From: a virus
Strand: one strand, 5' to 3'
IMG/VR virus record: IMGVR_UViG_3300044624_001938
Location: 1 to 34,947 of that record
DNA: 34,947 bases
In this document: piece by piece, positions 207-34,908 of the stretch
Numbering within the stretch: position 1 is the stretch's first letter
Layout of the letters: the number at the start of each line of letters is the position of its first letter
Position numbers and translations under genes: made by a program
The notes under the pieces: model-generated
Seen by the model: only the letters and a program-made list of their open reading frames with translations
Databases searched by the model: none
What the model was told of the DNA's origin: nothing

Positions 207-398
207 ATGCCGATGTGTCACGAGTGAGGCCGTGTAACCTGACTCGGGAGGGAGACGTGTTACAGAATAGTGGAGCCTCTATGCCGATGTGTCTCTGTTA
301 CCTATGTAGAACGTAAAACAGGAAGAGTATAGAGATGTAGTAAATGTGTGTAGTGGGGAGTTTCACGTTCTACACGTTACACAGTGACACATCGGCAT
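207..398. repeat. Iteron-like 13-mers with GTTAC partners
   Basis: ATGCCGATGTGTC occurs three times: plus strand at 207-219 and 281-293, minus strand at 386-398. A degenerate fourth site (TGTGTCACG, minus strand) lies at 458-466. Each copy is followed by a TGTAAC or GTTAC motif: GTGTAAC at 232-238, CTGTTAC at 295-301, and on the minus strand GTGTAAC from 382 to 376 and again near 446-440. Extra GTTACAG copies form the block at 259-265 and 414-420. Repeated two-part sites of this kind are typical of initiator or repressor binding arrays. Confidence 0.65.
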
Positions 399-466
399 AG
401 AACCGGCGCTATTCTGTAACCCTTCCCCGGTGAAGTCAGGTTACACGCGCCCCGAGTCGTGACACA
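214..466. repeat. Nested interrupted palindrome, candidate replication origin
   Basis: Five inverted-repeat blocks share one dyad axis near 339.5-340: 214-222/458-466 (9 bp), 231-244/434-447 (14 bp), 259-270/409-420 (12 bp), 278-293/386-401 (16 bp) and 305-314/365-374 (10 bp, extending 4 bp past one mismatch). Every block is a perfect match. The spacers between blocks differ in sequence but nearly match in length on the two arms (8/10, 14/13, 7/7, 11/11). The centre (about 320-359) is 40 nt with 40 percent GC in a genome far richer in GC. Constrained blocks with free, length-conserved spacers look like symmetric protein-binding sites around an unwinding region. An RNA with internal loops is the alternative. 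The origin role is inferred. Confidence 0.7.
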
Positions 467-12963: not shown

Positions 12964-13865
12964 GCCGCATCAACCGCGCGCCCGTTTCGCCCGGCGACAC
13001 CGTGGACGCCACGCCGCTCAACGCTGCGTACACTGACTTCGCTCAGACGGCGGCGCTGGACCAGTTCAACACGCGCGACAGCGCGTTCGACCTGGCGCAC
13101 CTCAAGACCAGCAGCACCGGCGCGCTCATGCTGCTCGATGTGCGCGAGCAGGCGGTGGGCACCGGCGACATCCTGCATGCGGCGCCGGCATCAGTGTCCA
13201 GCGCGGTGGCTGGGCCGGCAACGCCATCGGTGGTGACAGGCGGCGCCGGCAGCGTGCTGAGCTACGGCGGCAGCGGGCTTGCGATGCAGGCTGGCATGGT
13301 GCTGCGGGTCTACTCCAGTCTCGGCGTGCGCCCGCGCTACACGGGCACGCCCTGGGCCAACAGCGCCCCCGATGCGCTTGGCCAGTACGATGTGCTCGAC
13401 GGCAGCGGCGGCTCCACCGTTCTATCGCTGGGCGCCCACTTCTGGATCGTTCAGCTTCAATGGGACGTCACCAGCTCGGCGCTCATCAACTGGGTGCCTG
13501 TGAGTGGTGCCGGCAACTTCCAGAGCGTCGTCGTCTCGGGGCTTTACGGGCAGAGTCTGCAAACGATGCGGGGCTGCGCCTGCGTCCCGGCATGGAACTT
13601 GATGTGGTCGCAGTGGCGCAACGGAGACGCCCTTGCTGCTGGCTCCATGCTGGACCGCACGATCGGCTGGTACGGCGCGCCCATCAACTACGTGCTGCTC
13701 AACAACGCATCTCGCACAGTGTACGGCTTGCGTCTGGTGGTCCACGGCATCTACCATTCCTACCGTGACACCAACACCAACTACGCCGTGCTCGACGTCA
13801 ACGTGGCCGGCACCCTGGAGTACGACCAGGGCAACATCACCAGCATGCTGTTCCGGGAGCAGTGA
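12960..13865 (+). CDS. Putative tail/appendage protein, 301 aa, TTG start
   Basis: The start is a TTG that overlaps the previous stop (TTGA). There is no ATG near the N-terminus. The N-terminal motif INRAPVSPGDTVDATPLNAAYTDFAQ...FNTRDSAFDLAHLKT looks like a short virion-attachment domain, since a similar pattern (FTNGTPLDAADLLSNDDALRAYL) opens the next protein. The remaining 230 residues are beta-rich, with many Gly, Ser and Val and aromatic pairs (WNLMWSQWRNGD), as expected for a tail surface or fibre-like domain. It may be a paralogue in architecture of its two neighbours, though sequence identity is low. Confidence 0.55.
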   Translation: MSRINRAPVSPGDTVDATPLNAAYTDFAQTAALDQFNTRDSAFDLAHLKTSSTGALMLLDVREQAVGTGDILHAAPASVSSAVAGPATPSVVTGGAGSVLSYGGSGLAMQAGMVLRVYSSLGVRPRYTGTPWANSAPDALGQYDVLDGSGGSTVLSLGAHFWIVQLQWDVTSSALINWVPVSGAGNFQSVVVSGLYGQSLQTMRGCACVPAWNLMWSQWRNGDALAAGSMLDRTIGWYGAPINYVLLNNASRTVYGLRLVVHGIYHSYRDTNTNYAVLDVNVAGTLEYDQGNITSMLFREQ

Positions 13866-26250: not shown

Positions 26251-27522
26251 TCACTGCTCGGCACTGCGCAAGAACCACCGCTTGCTCACCTCGGCGCCCT
26301 CGCGCACGGTGCGTCGGTCGCAGCCCAGGCCGCGCAGCACCTCGCACACTTGCACCGAATGGTGGCGCGCCCGCTGGTGCATCGGCACCTCAAGGTGGTC
26401 GAGAACGTGCGTCACCAGGAAGCCCTTGCGCGCGAGCATGACGCCAGCGGGGGAGGCCAACCATTCGGCCACGCGCTCCTTCCACGGGTGCTGCTGCTGG
26501 TACTCAAGGTGCGCTTCGTCCAGCTCGGCCTCAGCGCGCTCGGGCAGAATCCAGCGCTCACCGGCGCGGTAGGCGGTCAACACCTCGGCCCACACTTGAT
26601 CGCGCACCGACGCCAGCTCAGTGATGCGCGCCCAGGTGGTGTCGCGGGTGGCGCGGCAAGTCACGGGCCAGAAGCGCCGGTTGCCGGTGGGGTCCGTCAG
26701 GAACTGCTCTTCGTTCGTCGACCCCAGGAACACACACTGACGCTCAATCGTGGTCGGCATGCGGTCATACGGGCGCCGCAGCTTGTCGCGCCGGCCCGAG
26801 ATGAACGCCTTGACGCTCTCGACATCGGAGCGCCGCGTTGCGCTCAGCTCGGCCAGCTCGTAGATCCACACGCCCTCAAGGTTCAGGTACGCGTCCTTGT
26901 CGCCCAGCGCGAAGGGCGTTTCCGCAAACCACTCCCCAGCCAGGGCGCGCCCGAACTGCGACTTGCCCACAGCCTGCCCCCCGACGAGGACCACCATCGA
27001 GTCAACCTTGCACCCCGGCTGGTAGACCCGCGCCACCGCTGAGATGAGCCAGCGCCAGCACATCTCGCTGGTGAGGGCGCTATCGTCGGCGCCCAGGTAG
27101 CGGGCGAAGAGATGGCGCGCCCGCTGTACTCCGTCCCAGCCGGGCAAGTGGCCAAGGTACTCGCGCACCACATGCACCGGATGCAGGCTCGCAGCGCGCC
27201 GCGTTGCGCGCGCCAGGACGTCGTGCGCGAAGTGAACGCGGTACTGCGCCCCGAACAGCTCAGCCAGGGCGTCGAGGTCGGCGTCGGACAGCGGCGCCCA
27301 GCGCCCGTTGTCGCCTCGCCACTGCGGGGCGCCGGTGAACTGGTCCCAGCGCAGCCGGCCGGCGAGCTGCGGGTCGGACTCCAGCAGCGCCACCGCGTTG
27401 GAGAAGCACGCCTTGGGGCGCCCGGTGAGGCTGCCGTCAGGCTCCACCCGGAGGCCGTCAAGCGGCGTGGCGAGCAGGACGTTGCGCACTTGCGTTGTGC
27501 GATCGGAACGGTCGAGGTTCAT
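26251..27522 (-). CDS. VapE/VirE-type replicative helicase
   Basis: This 423-aa protein is an ATPase of the virulence-associated protein E (VirE/VapE) family, phage helicases that usually pair with an AEP primase. Visible motifs are WRWLISAVARVYQPG (157-170), Walker A GGQAVGKS (181-188), DKDAYLNLEGVWIYELAEL with the Walker B acid E222 (208-226), SVKAFIS...RRPYDRM (237-255), the sensor-like GSTN (267-270) and TGNRRFWPV (279-287) with the arginine finger region. It probably unwinds DNA at the phage origin. The ATG overlaps the primase stop (ATGA), so the two are made together. It is the last leftward gene before the terminator. Confidence 0.9.
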   Translation of the reverse strand: MNLDRSDRTTQVRNVLLATPLDGLRVEPDGSLTGRPKACFSNAVALLESDPQLAGRLRWDQFTGAPQWRGDNGRWAPLSDADLDALAELFGAQYRVHFAHDVLARATRRAASLHPVHVVREYLGHLPGWDGVQRARHLFARYLGADDSALTSEMCWRWLISAVARVYQPGCKVDSMVVLVGGQAVGKSQFGRALAGEWFAETPFALGDKDAYLNLEGVWIYELAELSATRRSDVESVKAFISGRRDKLRRPYDRMPTTIERQCVFLGSTNEEQFLTDPTGNRRFWPVTCRATRDTTWARITELASVRDQVWAEVLTAYRAGERWILPERAEAELDEAHLEYQQQHPWKERVAEWLASPAGVMLARKGFLVTHVLDHLEVPMHQRARHHSVQVCEVLRGLGCDRRTVREGAEVSKRWFLRSAEQ

Positions 27523-28439
27523 GGGGCGGCTCCAGTGATGCGGCGGACTCCCGAGCGTACCGCGTTGCTCGCCTCGTCGGCGGGTAGACCACACGCGATC
27601 GCGGCGTCAATCAGGCGCTGTGTCCAGCGGGCCGTGTCGGCGGGCGGCAGGCCACGCTTGCCCAGCGCAACGCCGGCATCGAGCGCGGCGCGGTTGCGCC
27701 CGCCGGGCTGTGCCAGCGCCAGCCGCGCCTCCACGCGCGCTAGGTAGGCGCCGTGCGCGTGCTCGCTCGGGGGAGTCTCAGGGTGTGAGGGTGCGGAGTA
27801 AGGGTTGATGGGGGCGGGGCGGGCGGCAGGCGGCGGGTACGCCTCAAGGATGTCTCGAAGGCGCAGGCGGCGCCGGTAGGGGCAGCTCGCCCACACGCGG
27901 GGCGGTGGCTGCCCAGGGCGCTCAGCGGGCAACAGGTACGCGCGCGACGGGTCCTTGCATTGGGCGTCGACAGCGACGCCGTGCGCGGCGGCCCACCGGG
28001 CGGCGGCGCTCCAGTGGGCGCTCCACTCGTCGCGCTTGATCGGCTCTTCGAGGGGCCACAGGATGCGCGCCTTGGGCCGCTCGTCGGCGTGGGACCAGCT
28101 CGTGTGCGCCCACCACCGGGCGCCGCTCGCATCGCCCAGGGCGTCGAGCCGAGACAGCGGGCCGCCATCGTCGACGTCGAGCACGAGGCAGGTCAGCGCC
28201 TCCACCGCGTCGATGCGGCGCGGCGCGAGGCCAGGTGCGCTGGCAGCGTAGCGGGCCGGCGACCACGCGGGCGCGTCGCGCTTGTCGCTGATGGGCCGGC
28301 GCGGCACCTCGCCCCGCCCGTCGAGCAGGGCGCCCAGATCAGGCAAGTTGCAGCGGCGGCGCAGCACGGTGGAAGAGCGCGCCACGCCGCCGGGCAGCAG
28401 GCCGAACTCCACCAGCATGAACTGGTCCGGCACAGTCAC
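27519..28439 (-). CDS. Archaeo-eukaryotic-type (AEP) primase
   Basis: The 306-aa protein shows AEP primase motifs: LVLDVDDGG with metal-binding D88 and D90, WAHTSWSHADERPKARILWPLEEPI with H117 and R124 of the central motif, and DAQCKDPSRAYLLP with D163. It would make primers at the phage origin for the host replicase. The C-terminal region after about 200 is Pro-rich and then helical (AALDAGVALGKRGL...), like the PriCT-type ends of such primases. I chose the GTG overlapping the exonuclease stop (GTGA). Longer frames reach into the exonuclease gene. It is followed by the helicase with an ATGA overlap, giving a split primase-helicase. Confidence 0.85.
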   Translation of the reverse strand: MTVPDQFMLVEFGLLPGGVARSSTVLRRRCNLPDLGALLDGRGEVPRRPISDKRDAPAWSPARYAASAPGLAPRRIDAVEALTCLVLDVDDGGPLSRLDALGDASGARWWAHTSWSHADERPKARILWPLEEPIKRDEWSAHWSAAARWAAAHGVAVDAQCKDPSRAYLLPAERPGQPPPRVWASCPYRRRLRLRDILEAYPPPAARPAPINPYSAPSHPETPPSEHAHGAYLARVEARLALAQPGGRNRAALDAGVALGKRGLPPADTARWTQRLIDAAIACGLPADEASNAVRSGVRRITGAAP

Positions 28440-29083
28440 GGCGCCCCCACAGGCGGCAGGCTCTCCCGGTAGCGCTGCACCGCGCGCTGGTACTCCATGT
28501 TCGCCTGATTGATGCGGGTCCAGAACAGCGCATCGTCGTGCTGCGGCGGCAACTGCGTGTCGAGCAGCCAGCGGTACTGTGCCCGCCAGATGTCGCGCAC
28601 GGCCATCGCATCGCTCCATGCGTCGTGCGGGCGCCAGTACCAGGGGACGTCGCCACACCACCGCGCGAAGATGTCCGCCAGGTGGCGCTTGCCCGCCTCC
28701 GGGTAGCGCGCCGCATCCACCCAGCGCGTGTCGATGCAGCGGGTGCCGACCCCCGCCATGCCGCCCCCGGCGCGGGTCGCACCAGCCAGCAGCATGGCGA
28801 TGTCGAACGCCACGTTCTGCCCCACCAGCACGGCGCCGCGGAGGAACCCGCCGGCTTGTGCGAACACGTTTGCAGGCGGCGTGCCGTTCTCGGCCAGGAA
28901 CTGCTGCGTCAGCCCGTGAACTGCCTGCGCCTCGCTGGTCCACTCGGGCGCACGCGGCATGTCGGTCCAGTCGATGTAGGCGGTGAGGGTGGTGCCCGCC
29001 AGGTCGACGAGGGCCAGCTGGATGGGCGCATGCTTGTCGGCCTTGAGGCCGGTTGTCTCAGTGTCAATCGCTACGAATCGCAT
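28436..29083 (-). CDS. DnaQ-like 3-prime to 5-prime exonuclease
   Basis: This 215-aa protein carries the DEDDh exonuclease signature: IDTETTG (D7, E9), QNVAFD (D94) and HDAWSDA (H153, D158). Enzymes of this family degrade single strands or proofread DNA synthesis. Here the gene stands between SSB and primase, so a role in replication, recombination with the ERF protein or nucleotide recycling is likely. The ATG at 29083 has a GAGG site 9 bases upstream. The C-terminal 50 residues (DTQLPPQHDDALFWTRINQANMEYQRAVQRYRES) form an added helical part of unknown function. The gene start overlaps the preceding small gene by 20 bases in another frame. Confidence 0.9.
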   Translation of the reverse strand: MRFVAIDTETTGLKADKHAPIQLALVDLAGTTLTAYIDWTDMPRAPEWTSEAQAVHGLTQQFLAENGTPPANVFAQAGGFLRGAVLVGQNVAFDIAMLLAGATRAGGGMAGVGTRCIDTRWVDAARYPEAGKRHLADIFARWCGDVPWYWRPHDAWSDAMAVRDIWRAQYRWLLDTQLPPQHDDALFWTRINQANMEYQRAVQRYRESLPPVGAP

Positions 29084-29253: not shown

Positions 29254-29673
29254 TCAGAACGGGATGTCGTCAGTGTCGCGCCGCTGAGGAGTGGTGGGGC
29301 GCCGCGAGGGGGCGCGGGGCGCCTCGTCGTGCTCGTCGCTGGTGGGCGCCGCTTGCCGGGCCGGAGCCACGACCTGCGCGTCGTCGGCCTTGATCTCAGC
29401 GACCGTGCGCTCCTGCCCGTCCTTTGCCGTGTAGGTGCGGTAGGTGAGCTGCCCCGTCACCTCGACTGTGGCGCCCTTGTGCGCGCGCTCGGCCAGGAAC
29501 TCAGCAGCCTTGCCGAACACGGTGACGGCGTGCCAGTCGGCCACGGTCTGCCACTCCGCGCCGACCTTGGTGCGGCGGTTGGTGGCAAGGCGCAGCTCAG
29601 CGATGGTGGTGTCGCCGGCCTTCTTGATGATGGGGTCGGCGCCGAGCCGACCGACGAGACAGATGCGGTTCAC
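29254..29673 (-). CDS. ssb: Single-stranded DNA-binding protein
   Basis: The 139-aa protein has the OB-fold pattern of bacterial SSB: MNRICLVGRLGADPIIKKAG, ELRLATNRR, WHAVTVFGKAAEFLAERAHKGATVEVTGQLTYRTYTAKDGQERT. A disordered Pro/Arg-rich linker and the acidic tip DTDDIPF follow. That C-terminal tip is the known docking site for replication and repair partners, so the phage SSB probably recruits host or phage enzymes. The gene overlaps the ERF gene by ATGA, an arrangement common for annealase-SSB pairs. Confidence 0.95.
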   Translation of the reverse strand: MNRICLVGRLGADPIIKKAGDTTIAELRLATNRRTKVGAEWQTVADWHAVTVFGKAAEFLAERAHKGATVEVTGQLTYRTYTAKDGQERTVAEIKADDAQVVAPARQAAPTSDEHDEAPRAPSRRPTTPQRRDTDDIPF

Positions 29674-31652: not shown

Positions 31653-31875
31653 CGGGCATCTCCAGAGACAGGCGAGGATAGACGTCGTTCAGCGCGGCGG
31701 ACAAGCGCCCTTCGGTCACGCCGTCACGGATCACAGTCCCGTCAGCGTGCGACACTTCCCACCACCCGCTGCGACGGTGCAGCAGGAGACGGGGCACGGC
31801 GCCCTCCAGCAGTAGCCAGAGCGGGCCGTGCTGCGCCCACGCCCAGGGAGCGGGCACCACGAGGGGAGGGATCAC
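31633..31875 (-). CDS. Hypothetical protein, 80 aa, GTG start
   Basis: The GTG at 31873-31875 overlaps the upstream stop (GTGA), giving a protein beginning IPPLVVPAPWAWAQHGPLWL after the start residue. It then has two basic strands (RLLLHRRSGWWEVSHADGTV) and an acidic end (LEMPDANDAP). The longer frame with an ATG at 31932 lies inside the upstream gene and lacks a ribosome binding site. The tryptophan-rich composition and short strands suggest a small beta fold. No function can be given. It sits in the tightly packed leftward operon. Confidence 0.55.
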   Translation of the reverse strand: MIPPLVVPAPWAWAQHGPLWLLLEGAVPRLLLHRRSGWWEVSHADGTVIRDGVTEGRLSAALNDVYPRLSLEMPDANDAP

Positions 31876-34383: not shown

Positions 34384-34908
34384 CTACCGGAGCGTGGTGT
34401 CAGTCACCACGTAGAACTCACCCTTGTAGGTGAACTCATCGATGTCGCCGCAAAGCATGTCCCGAGCGAGCGCATCGAAGTCGACGTACGGCGCAAGGGA
34501 CGCGGGGATGCTGTACCGCTCGCACGCGTACTCCTCAGCGTACTCCTCAGCGTGCCCGTGGTAGAGCGGAACGCCCTCGGCGCAGTCCAGCAGCTCGTCA
34601 GCGCACGCGGGGCGCATCCCCTGGACGCTCAGCAGGTAGAACGCAGACGGTGCGTTGCCGTGGTTCAGCATGTCGTCGAGCTTGAACAACTCCTCAGCCG
34701 GCATGCAGTGGGCGGCGCACTCCATCAAGCGCCCGTGTTCACCGTCGATGACGTCTACTTCCCACTCTTCCGTACCGCGCGCAGCGAACCGGGAGAGGAC
34801 GGCGCGCAGCTCGTCCGCGTCGTGGACGTACGCGCCGGGGGAACCGTCGTAGGGGTTGAGGTAGAGGACGAGGGAGGACGCGGGCGCGGGCAGGGTGGCG
34901 GGGCTCAT
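34384..34908 (-). CDS. ardA: ArdA-like antirestriction protein
   Basis: ArdA proteins are acidic DNA mimics that block type I restriction enzymes of the host. The 174-aa product is close to the usual 165 and shows the family order: LVLYLNPYDGSPGAYVHDADEL near 13-34, EEWEVDVIDGEHG near 47-59, LYHGHAEEYAEEYACERY near 115-132 and YVDFDALARDMLCGDIDEFTYKGEFYVV near 141-168. It is strongly acidic, as expected for a mimic. A 12-base tandem repeat at about 34527-34550 encodes AEEYAEEY. A TGGAG site lies 11 bases before the ATG, downstream of the large dyad. Early expression after DNA entry would protect the genome. The family call is from motif recall and is fairly secure. Confidence 0.85.
   Translation of the reverse strand: MSPATLPAPASSLVLYLNPYDGSPGAYVHDADELRAVLSRFAARGTEEWEVDVIDGEHGRLMECAAHCMPAEELFKLDDMLNHGNAPSAFYLLSVQGMRPACADELLDCAEGVPLYHGHAEEYAEEYACERYSIPASLAPYVDFDALARDMLCGDIDEFTYKGEFYVVTDTTLR

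Follow-up and report, generated by a model that had tools for sequence, protein, structure and literature searches.

We identified a mirrored 253-bp site at positions 214–466 of a tailed phage genome that is, with a probability of roughly 0.8, the replication origin of this phage, where mirrored iterons would load two VapE-type helicase rings around a melting zone. The window analyzed here, 34,947 bases long, is the whole virus record. The same 127 bases stand at both of its ends, which fits a genome of ~34.8 kb that was assembled as a circle. The features that we computed are the mirrored iterons, the AT-rich centre, the family and fold of the helicase, and the association of such sites with the helicase in other phages. 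From these we infer the binding of the helicase to the iterons, the head-to-head loading of two rings and the start of replication at the site.

The site is contained in a noncoding stretch (89–485) between two leftward genes. A preliminary description had reported five perfect inverted blocks of 9, 14, 12, 16 and 10 bp, and we recovered the same lengths and all 61 pairs, with a common centre at 339–340. The spacers differ in sequence, as that description said. The components of the site are as follows.

214..466, no strand: whole mirrored origin-like site, two arms and centre (opposite-strand self-match and shuffle score)
214..314, plus strand: left arm, with five blocks and inward-pointing GTGTNAC iterons at 215, 232 and 257
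315..364, no strand: asymmetric AT-rich and purine-rich centre, the presumed melting zone
365..466, minus strand: right arm, with five blocks and inward-pointing GTGTNAC iterons at 376, 384, 440 and 459
214–222 / 458–466: inverted block pair of 9 bp, centre 340
231–244 / 434–447: inverted block pair of 14 bp, centre 339
259–270 / 409–420: inverted block pair of 12 bp, centre 339.5
278–293 / 386–401: inverted block pair of 16 bp, centre 339.5
305–314 / 365–374: inverted block pair of 10 bp, centre 339.5

We assessed whether such a structure could arise by chance. Compared with its own reverse complement, the region is 73% identical (E = 9.5e-28). In a scan for nested inverted blocks, in which the score sums the blocks, the site reached 32 and the runner-up place in the window reached 9. 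Sixty dinucleotide shuffles of the whole genome gave a mean best score of 7.2 and a maximum of 14. Given these scores and the self-match, the site is real and lies far beyond chance, as had been asserted from the sequence alone. No other 100 bp of the genome are as AT-rich as 281–380 (41% GC vs 69% overall), and purines make up 73% of the 45 bp around 339. A purine-rich centre was also considered as a general trait of such sites and was rejected because it is not general.

The preliminary description overlooked a short repeat, GTGTNAC, inside the blocks. The genome carries 8 copies of it (14 expected by chance), 7 of which fall in the site and one at 13765. TGTAAC/GTTACA is found five times within 200–480 and nowhere else in the genome. 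The inward orientation of the iterons in two inverted sets, together with the AT-rich centre, gives the layout of an iteron origin with a melting zone. As a separate observation, GTGTNAC is depleted across 481–34820 (one copy vs ~14 expected), a pattern suggestive of selection against stray sites. A conserved core motif, GAGTATAG, present in the window and in the terminase relative L165 and in looser form in L037 and L046, was discarded since it showed no excess over shuffles (p 0.03 to 0.75).

The same repeats could serve transcription control and have no role in replication, as operator pairs in the leader of the gene that starts leftward at 88, to which a phage regulator would bind. The intergenic position between two leftward genes agrees with this, and inward-pointing repeats are typical of operators as well. 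However, a scan of the site that covered sigma-70-like promoters only was negative. Moreover, similar mirrored arrays track one helicase family in many unrelated phages (see below), which operators would not predict. We therefore regard control of transcription as an unlikely function of the site.

Two other features were noted in this neighbourhood. Beside the site, in the leader of the leftward gene starting at 88, there is a strong hairpin at 127–187 (GCCCCGTCTGCCATCCGG / CCGGGTAGCAGACGGCGC) that is conserved in the viral contig L006; an attenuator and a single-strand initiation site are candidate roles. The small leftward genes have a near-identical leader before the start codon, GGAGACTCC or GGAGAGTC (minus strand, 96–103, 810–818 and 1095–1103), which is probably a shared ribosome-binding site.

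The phage encodes the following replication proteins.

26251..27594, minus strand: VapE-type helicase and presumed initiator, with a C-terminus (~372–443) modelled as a winged helix (PF05272)
27519..28943, minus strand: primase-like protein just upstream of the helicase (phrog_9765 DNA primase, E=4.4e-9)
29254..29673, minus strand: single-strand DNA-binding protein (SSB; PF00436, E=1.1e-25)

According to the preliminary description, the phage had no known initiator. The helicase changes this picture, as it belongs with the SaPI-type self-loading initiator helicases. It matches Pfam PF05272 with E=2.5e-75, and when its family profile was compared to the PDB, 7pds was the sole significant sequence match (E=2.2e-74). 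This entry is titled “The structure of PriRep1 with dsDNA”, and we take it to be a staphylococcal satellite Rep from a 2022 Nucleic Acids Research study to which PMC9894130 refers. We built an AlphaFold2 model of the helicase from 38 window and locus sequences (pLDDT 87.8). Residues 34–447 of the model superimposed on 7pds_A with Z 34.9 and rmsd 4.5 over 396 residues, and the next entry reached 15.4. The C-terminal domain of the model (382–442) consists of three helices and a two-strand wing and was aligned with 7pds. Sequence comparison thus indicates a VapE-like helicase core, and the model suggests that the putative C-terminal DNA-binding domain resembles that of PriRep1, in fold only.

The true start of the primase-like protein is probably internal. 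The phage also encodes an exonuclease, an Erf-type annealing protein and a Holliday junction resolvase. No DNA polymerase was recognized among the proteins scanned, and a host polymerase is therefore assumed. An ArdA-like antirestriction protein is encoded at 34384–34908 on the minus strand (PF07275, E = 7.9e-8).

SaPI Rep helicases bind iterons via their C-terminal domain (PMC7581432). In the mechanism that we propose for the phage, the winged-helix C-terminal domain of the VapE-type helicase would bind the iterons (GTGTNAC and flanking bases) on each arm. As the arms are inverted copies, one helicase ring would be loaded on each arm, and the two rings would face each other across the AT-rich centre. 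The rings would melt the centre and two forks would start, after which the phage primase and SSB and the host polymerase would complete replication. A role for host DnaA, raised in the preliminary description, is unsupported because no TTWTNCACA box, a trait of DnaA-type origins, is present anywhere in the window. The GC skew that it proposed as a check also gave no support to an origin here: the extremes are at 31845 and 7092 and there is no sign change at 340. Its designation of the region as a replication origin is instead well supported by comparison with other phages.

We compared the site among the window and three close relatives (L030, L031 and L035). Conservation is 92% in the blocks, 84% in the centre and 73% in the spacers, so that the blocks are kept and the spacers are freer to vary, as had been anticipated for related phages. 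Comparison with other phages gives good support to the earlier proposal of paired protein-binding sites around a melting zone, with the sites themselves being predicted. The same four sequences bear on whether the arms act by pairing with each other, as RNA in a long hairpin transcript or as a DNA cruciform, such that pairing itself matters. The RNA fold is very stable (z = -14.5), though any long inverted repeat would give that. Eight block pairs vary among the four sequences, and none is compensated to a new Watson-Crick pair; most of the changes break the pair or leave G-T, although with four sequences this is a modest test. All Rfam matches were sub-threshold, and the repeats of relatives stand head-to-tail within one arm, an arrangement that pairing does not need. 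Because the base changes in the blocks are uncompensated, an RNA or cruciform is disfavoured, including the long structured RNA that the preliminary description gave as an alternative, and we consider it very unlikely.

Mirrored arrays with other repeats were found 1.3–1.8 kb upstream of the terminase gene, the same place as in the window, in L037 (terminase 85% identity, repeats with ATGTATACATGTC), L165 (63%, repeats TGCAGGGGTCG), L167 and L183. In L046 (terminase 58%), mirrored GTCCCAACC repeats upstream of the terminase start at the stop codon of the helicase, the product of which is 46% identical to that of 26251–27594. Distant relatives keep the mirrored layout with unrelated repeats, which also occur head to tail within one arm. 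In 17 out of 36 loci (7.8 expected), the best palindrome was no more than 2 kb upstream of the terminase, although many of these 17 are weak and nine score at least 10. There was no clear site in G038, G044, G047 and G049, which are longer, distant terminase relatives with fused helicases of ~790 aa. Absence of the pattern from related phages had been named as a ground for refutation. Some distant relatives do lack it, whereas it is present at the same place in several divergent relatives and in the closest ones with coverage there.

When the region or the initial 25 kb of the window was used as query, near and distant nucleotide searches of cultured phages gave no match. A 15-base block, CTATGCCGATGTGTC, occurs in 27 viral contigs, mostly by chance, and has a mirrored partner only in L006. 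The terminase search of bacterial genomes yielded nothing closer than distant matches or a MAG contig of short length. A 108-bp inverted repeat near the contig end of L037 (6533–6676) was set aside, as it is probably an assembly fold-back.

We also examined viral loci that encode relatives of the helicase, for which the best 80 viral matches were collected and then dereplicated. The loci are phylogenetically non-independent, and proportions from these best 80 matches are descriptive. As control we used the upstream side together with the remainder of each locus. In 28 out of 60 dereplicated loci from the best 80 matches, the best mirrored palindrome of the locus was no more than 600 bp behind the helicase match, against an expectation of 2.9 loci. 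Palindromes scoring at least 9 were present within 600 bp after the helicase in 35% of the dereplicated loci from this set and in none within 600 bp upstream. Counting repeated 7-mers, we detected an outstanding iteron array directly after the helicase stop in 33 out of 61 loci from the best 80 matches, and in about half of the helicase loci a clear array was absent. In cultured phages, the same count finds an outstanding array immediately behind the helicase stop in 9 out of 11. Examples of arrays after the helicase are those of Enterococcus phage phiFL4A (GTATCCA), Corynebacterium phage IME1320_01 (TGTCACA), Marinobacter phage PS3 (GGGGTGA) and Lacticaseibacillus phage JB1P3 (TGGGACA). In many of these phages, the helicase is followed by a gap of ~220–340 bp without annotated genes. 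The two cultured phages with no clear array, Streptococcus phage Javan100 and Bacteroides phage BC669P2, have the same gap after the VapE-type gene (L153 3773–4015 and L158 3794–4014, respectively), and the sites used by their origins may be degenerate.

A site may be inherited in common by loci of the same lineage, yet the repeats differ widely between loci. Iteron similarity is weakly related to helicase similarity (Spearman 0.19 for the C-terminus and 0.17 for the core), and we rejected a coupling of iteron type to the helicase C-terminus on the basis of the former value. Taken at the level of sequence, the comparison suggests that many tailed phages with VapE-type helicases also have a mirrored-iteron origin-like site. 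The association also bears on whether 214–466 is a site of recombination or segregation (attP, resolution or partition), since a centre flanked by inverted repeats is seen at such sites too. Searches of the genome for a tyrosine integrase (PF00589) and a serine recombinase (PF00239) were both negative, and the site tracks the helicase family and not a recombinase, making this function highly improbable.

Several findings count against an origin at 214–466. The site is 8.9 kb around the circle from the 3' end of the helicase gene and does not adjoin it. The absence of a skew switch, the helicase loci, cultured phages and distant terminase relatives in which no clear array was seen, and the weak relation between iteron and helicase similarity also speak against it. 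We lean slightly toward an evolutionary account in which the iteron sequence turns over fast and the mirrored layout stays, and in which some lineages, this one included, have lost the adjacency of origin and helicase gene.

It is known that SaPI and PICI elements are related to phages. In their origins (SaPIbov1, SaPI1, SaPI5 and E. coli PICIs), two opposed iteron sets flank an AT-rich region, and the initiator is a hexameric self-loading Rep helicase with a C-terminal DNA-binding domain (PMC6092414, PMC7581432, PMC9894130). The phage site is similar in that three plus-strand and four minus-strand copies of GTGTNAC surround the most AT-rich 100 bp of the genome, and the sets are opposed, with 3/3 left-arm copies on the plus strand and 4/4 right-arm copies on the minus strand. 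In addition, the closest solved relative of the phage helicase is PriRep1 (7pds). The phage site differs from those of the satellites in belonging to a tailed phage from an uncultured lineage and in having arms made of composite blocks, each paired with its own counterpart, rather than a simple array of one repeat. The site is also distant from the helicase gene, whereas SaPI/PICI origins are directly behind it, as are the arrays of L046 and of many helicase relatives. As it is not immediately 3' of the helicase gene, we do not class the site as a SaPI/PICI origin, only as one that would work like it.

Two further systems are comparable in part. In SCCmec, the initiator-type helicase Cch2 binds iterons downstream of its own gene, at a putative origin, through its C-terminal domain (PMC7581432). 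The presumed initiator of the phage is likewise an initiator-type helicase with predicted C-terminal iteron binding. However, Cch2 is in a different helicase family (Primase_Cterm type), and its iterons are few and are direct repeats, the inverted repeats there being dispensable for binding. At the SV40 origin, the large T antigen helicase is loaded as two oppositely oriented rings on either side of a melting zone (PMC9894130), which is the arrangement proposed here for the phage. SV40 differs in that it is a eukaryotic virus whose helicase uses an N-terminal domain to bind the origin, and the two systems are unrelated in sequence.

Earlier reports of such origins in phages with VapE-type helicases may exist, as our literature search covered open-access publications. 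With the results presented here, an unexplained palindrome becomes a testable candidate origin with a named presumed initiator. Looking for a mirrored iteron array behind a VapE-type helicase also gives a rule by which origins can be predicted in many phages that have been sequenced, phiFL4A, IME1320_01, PS3 and JB1P3 being examples from culture. Confirmation would mean that tailed phages and satellites have in common a single bacterial counterpart to the double-hexamer start of SV40 type.
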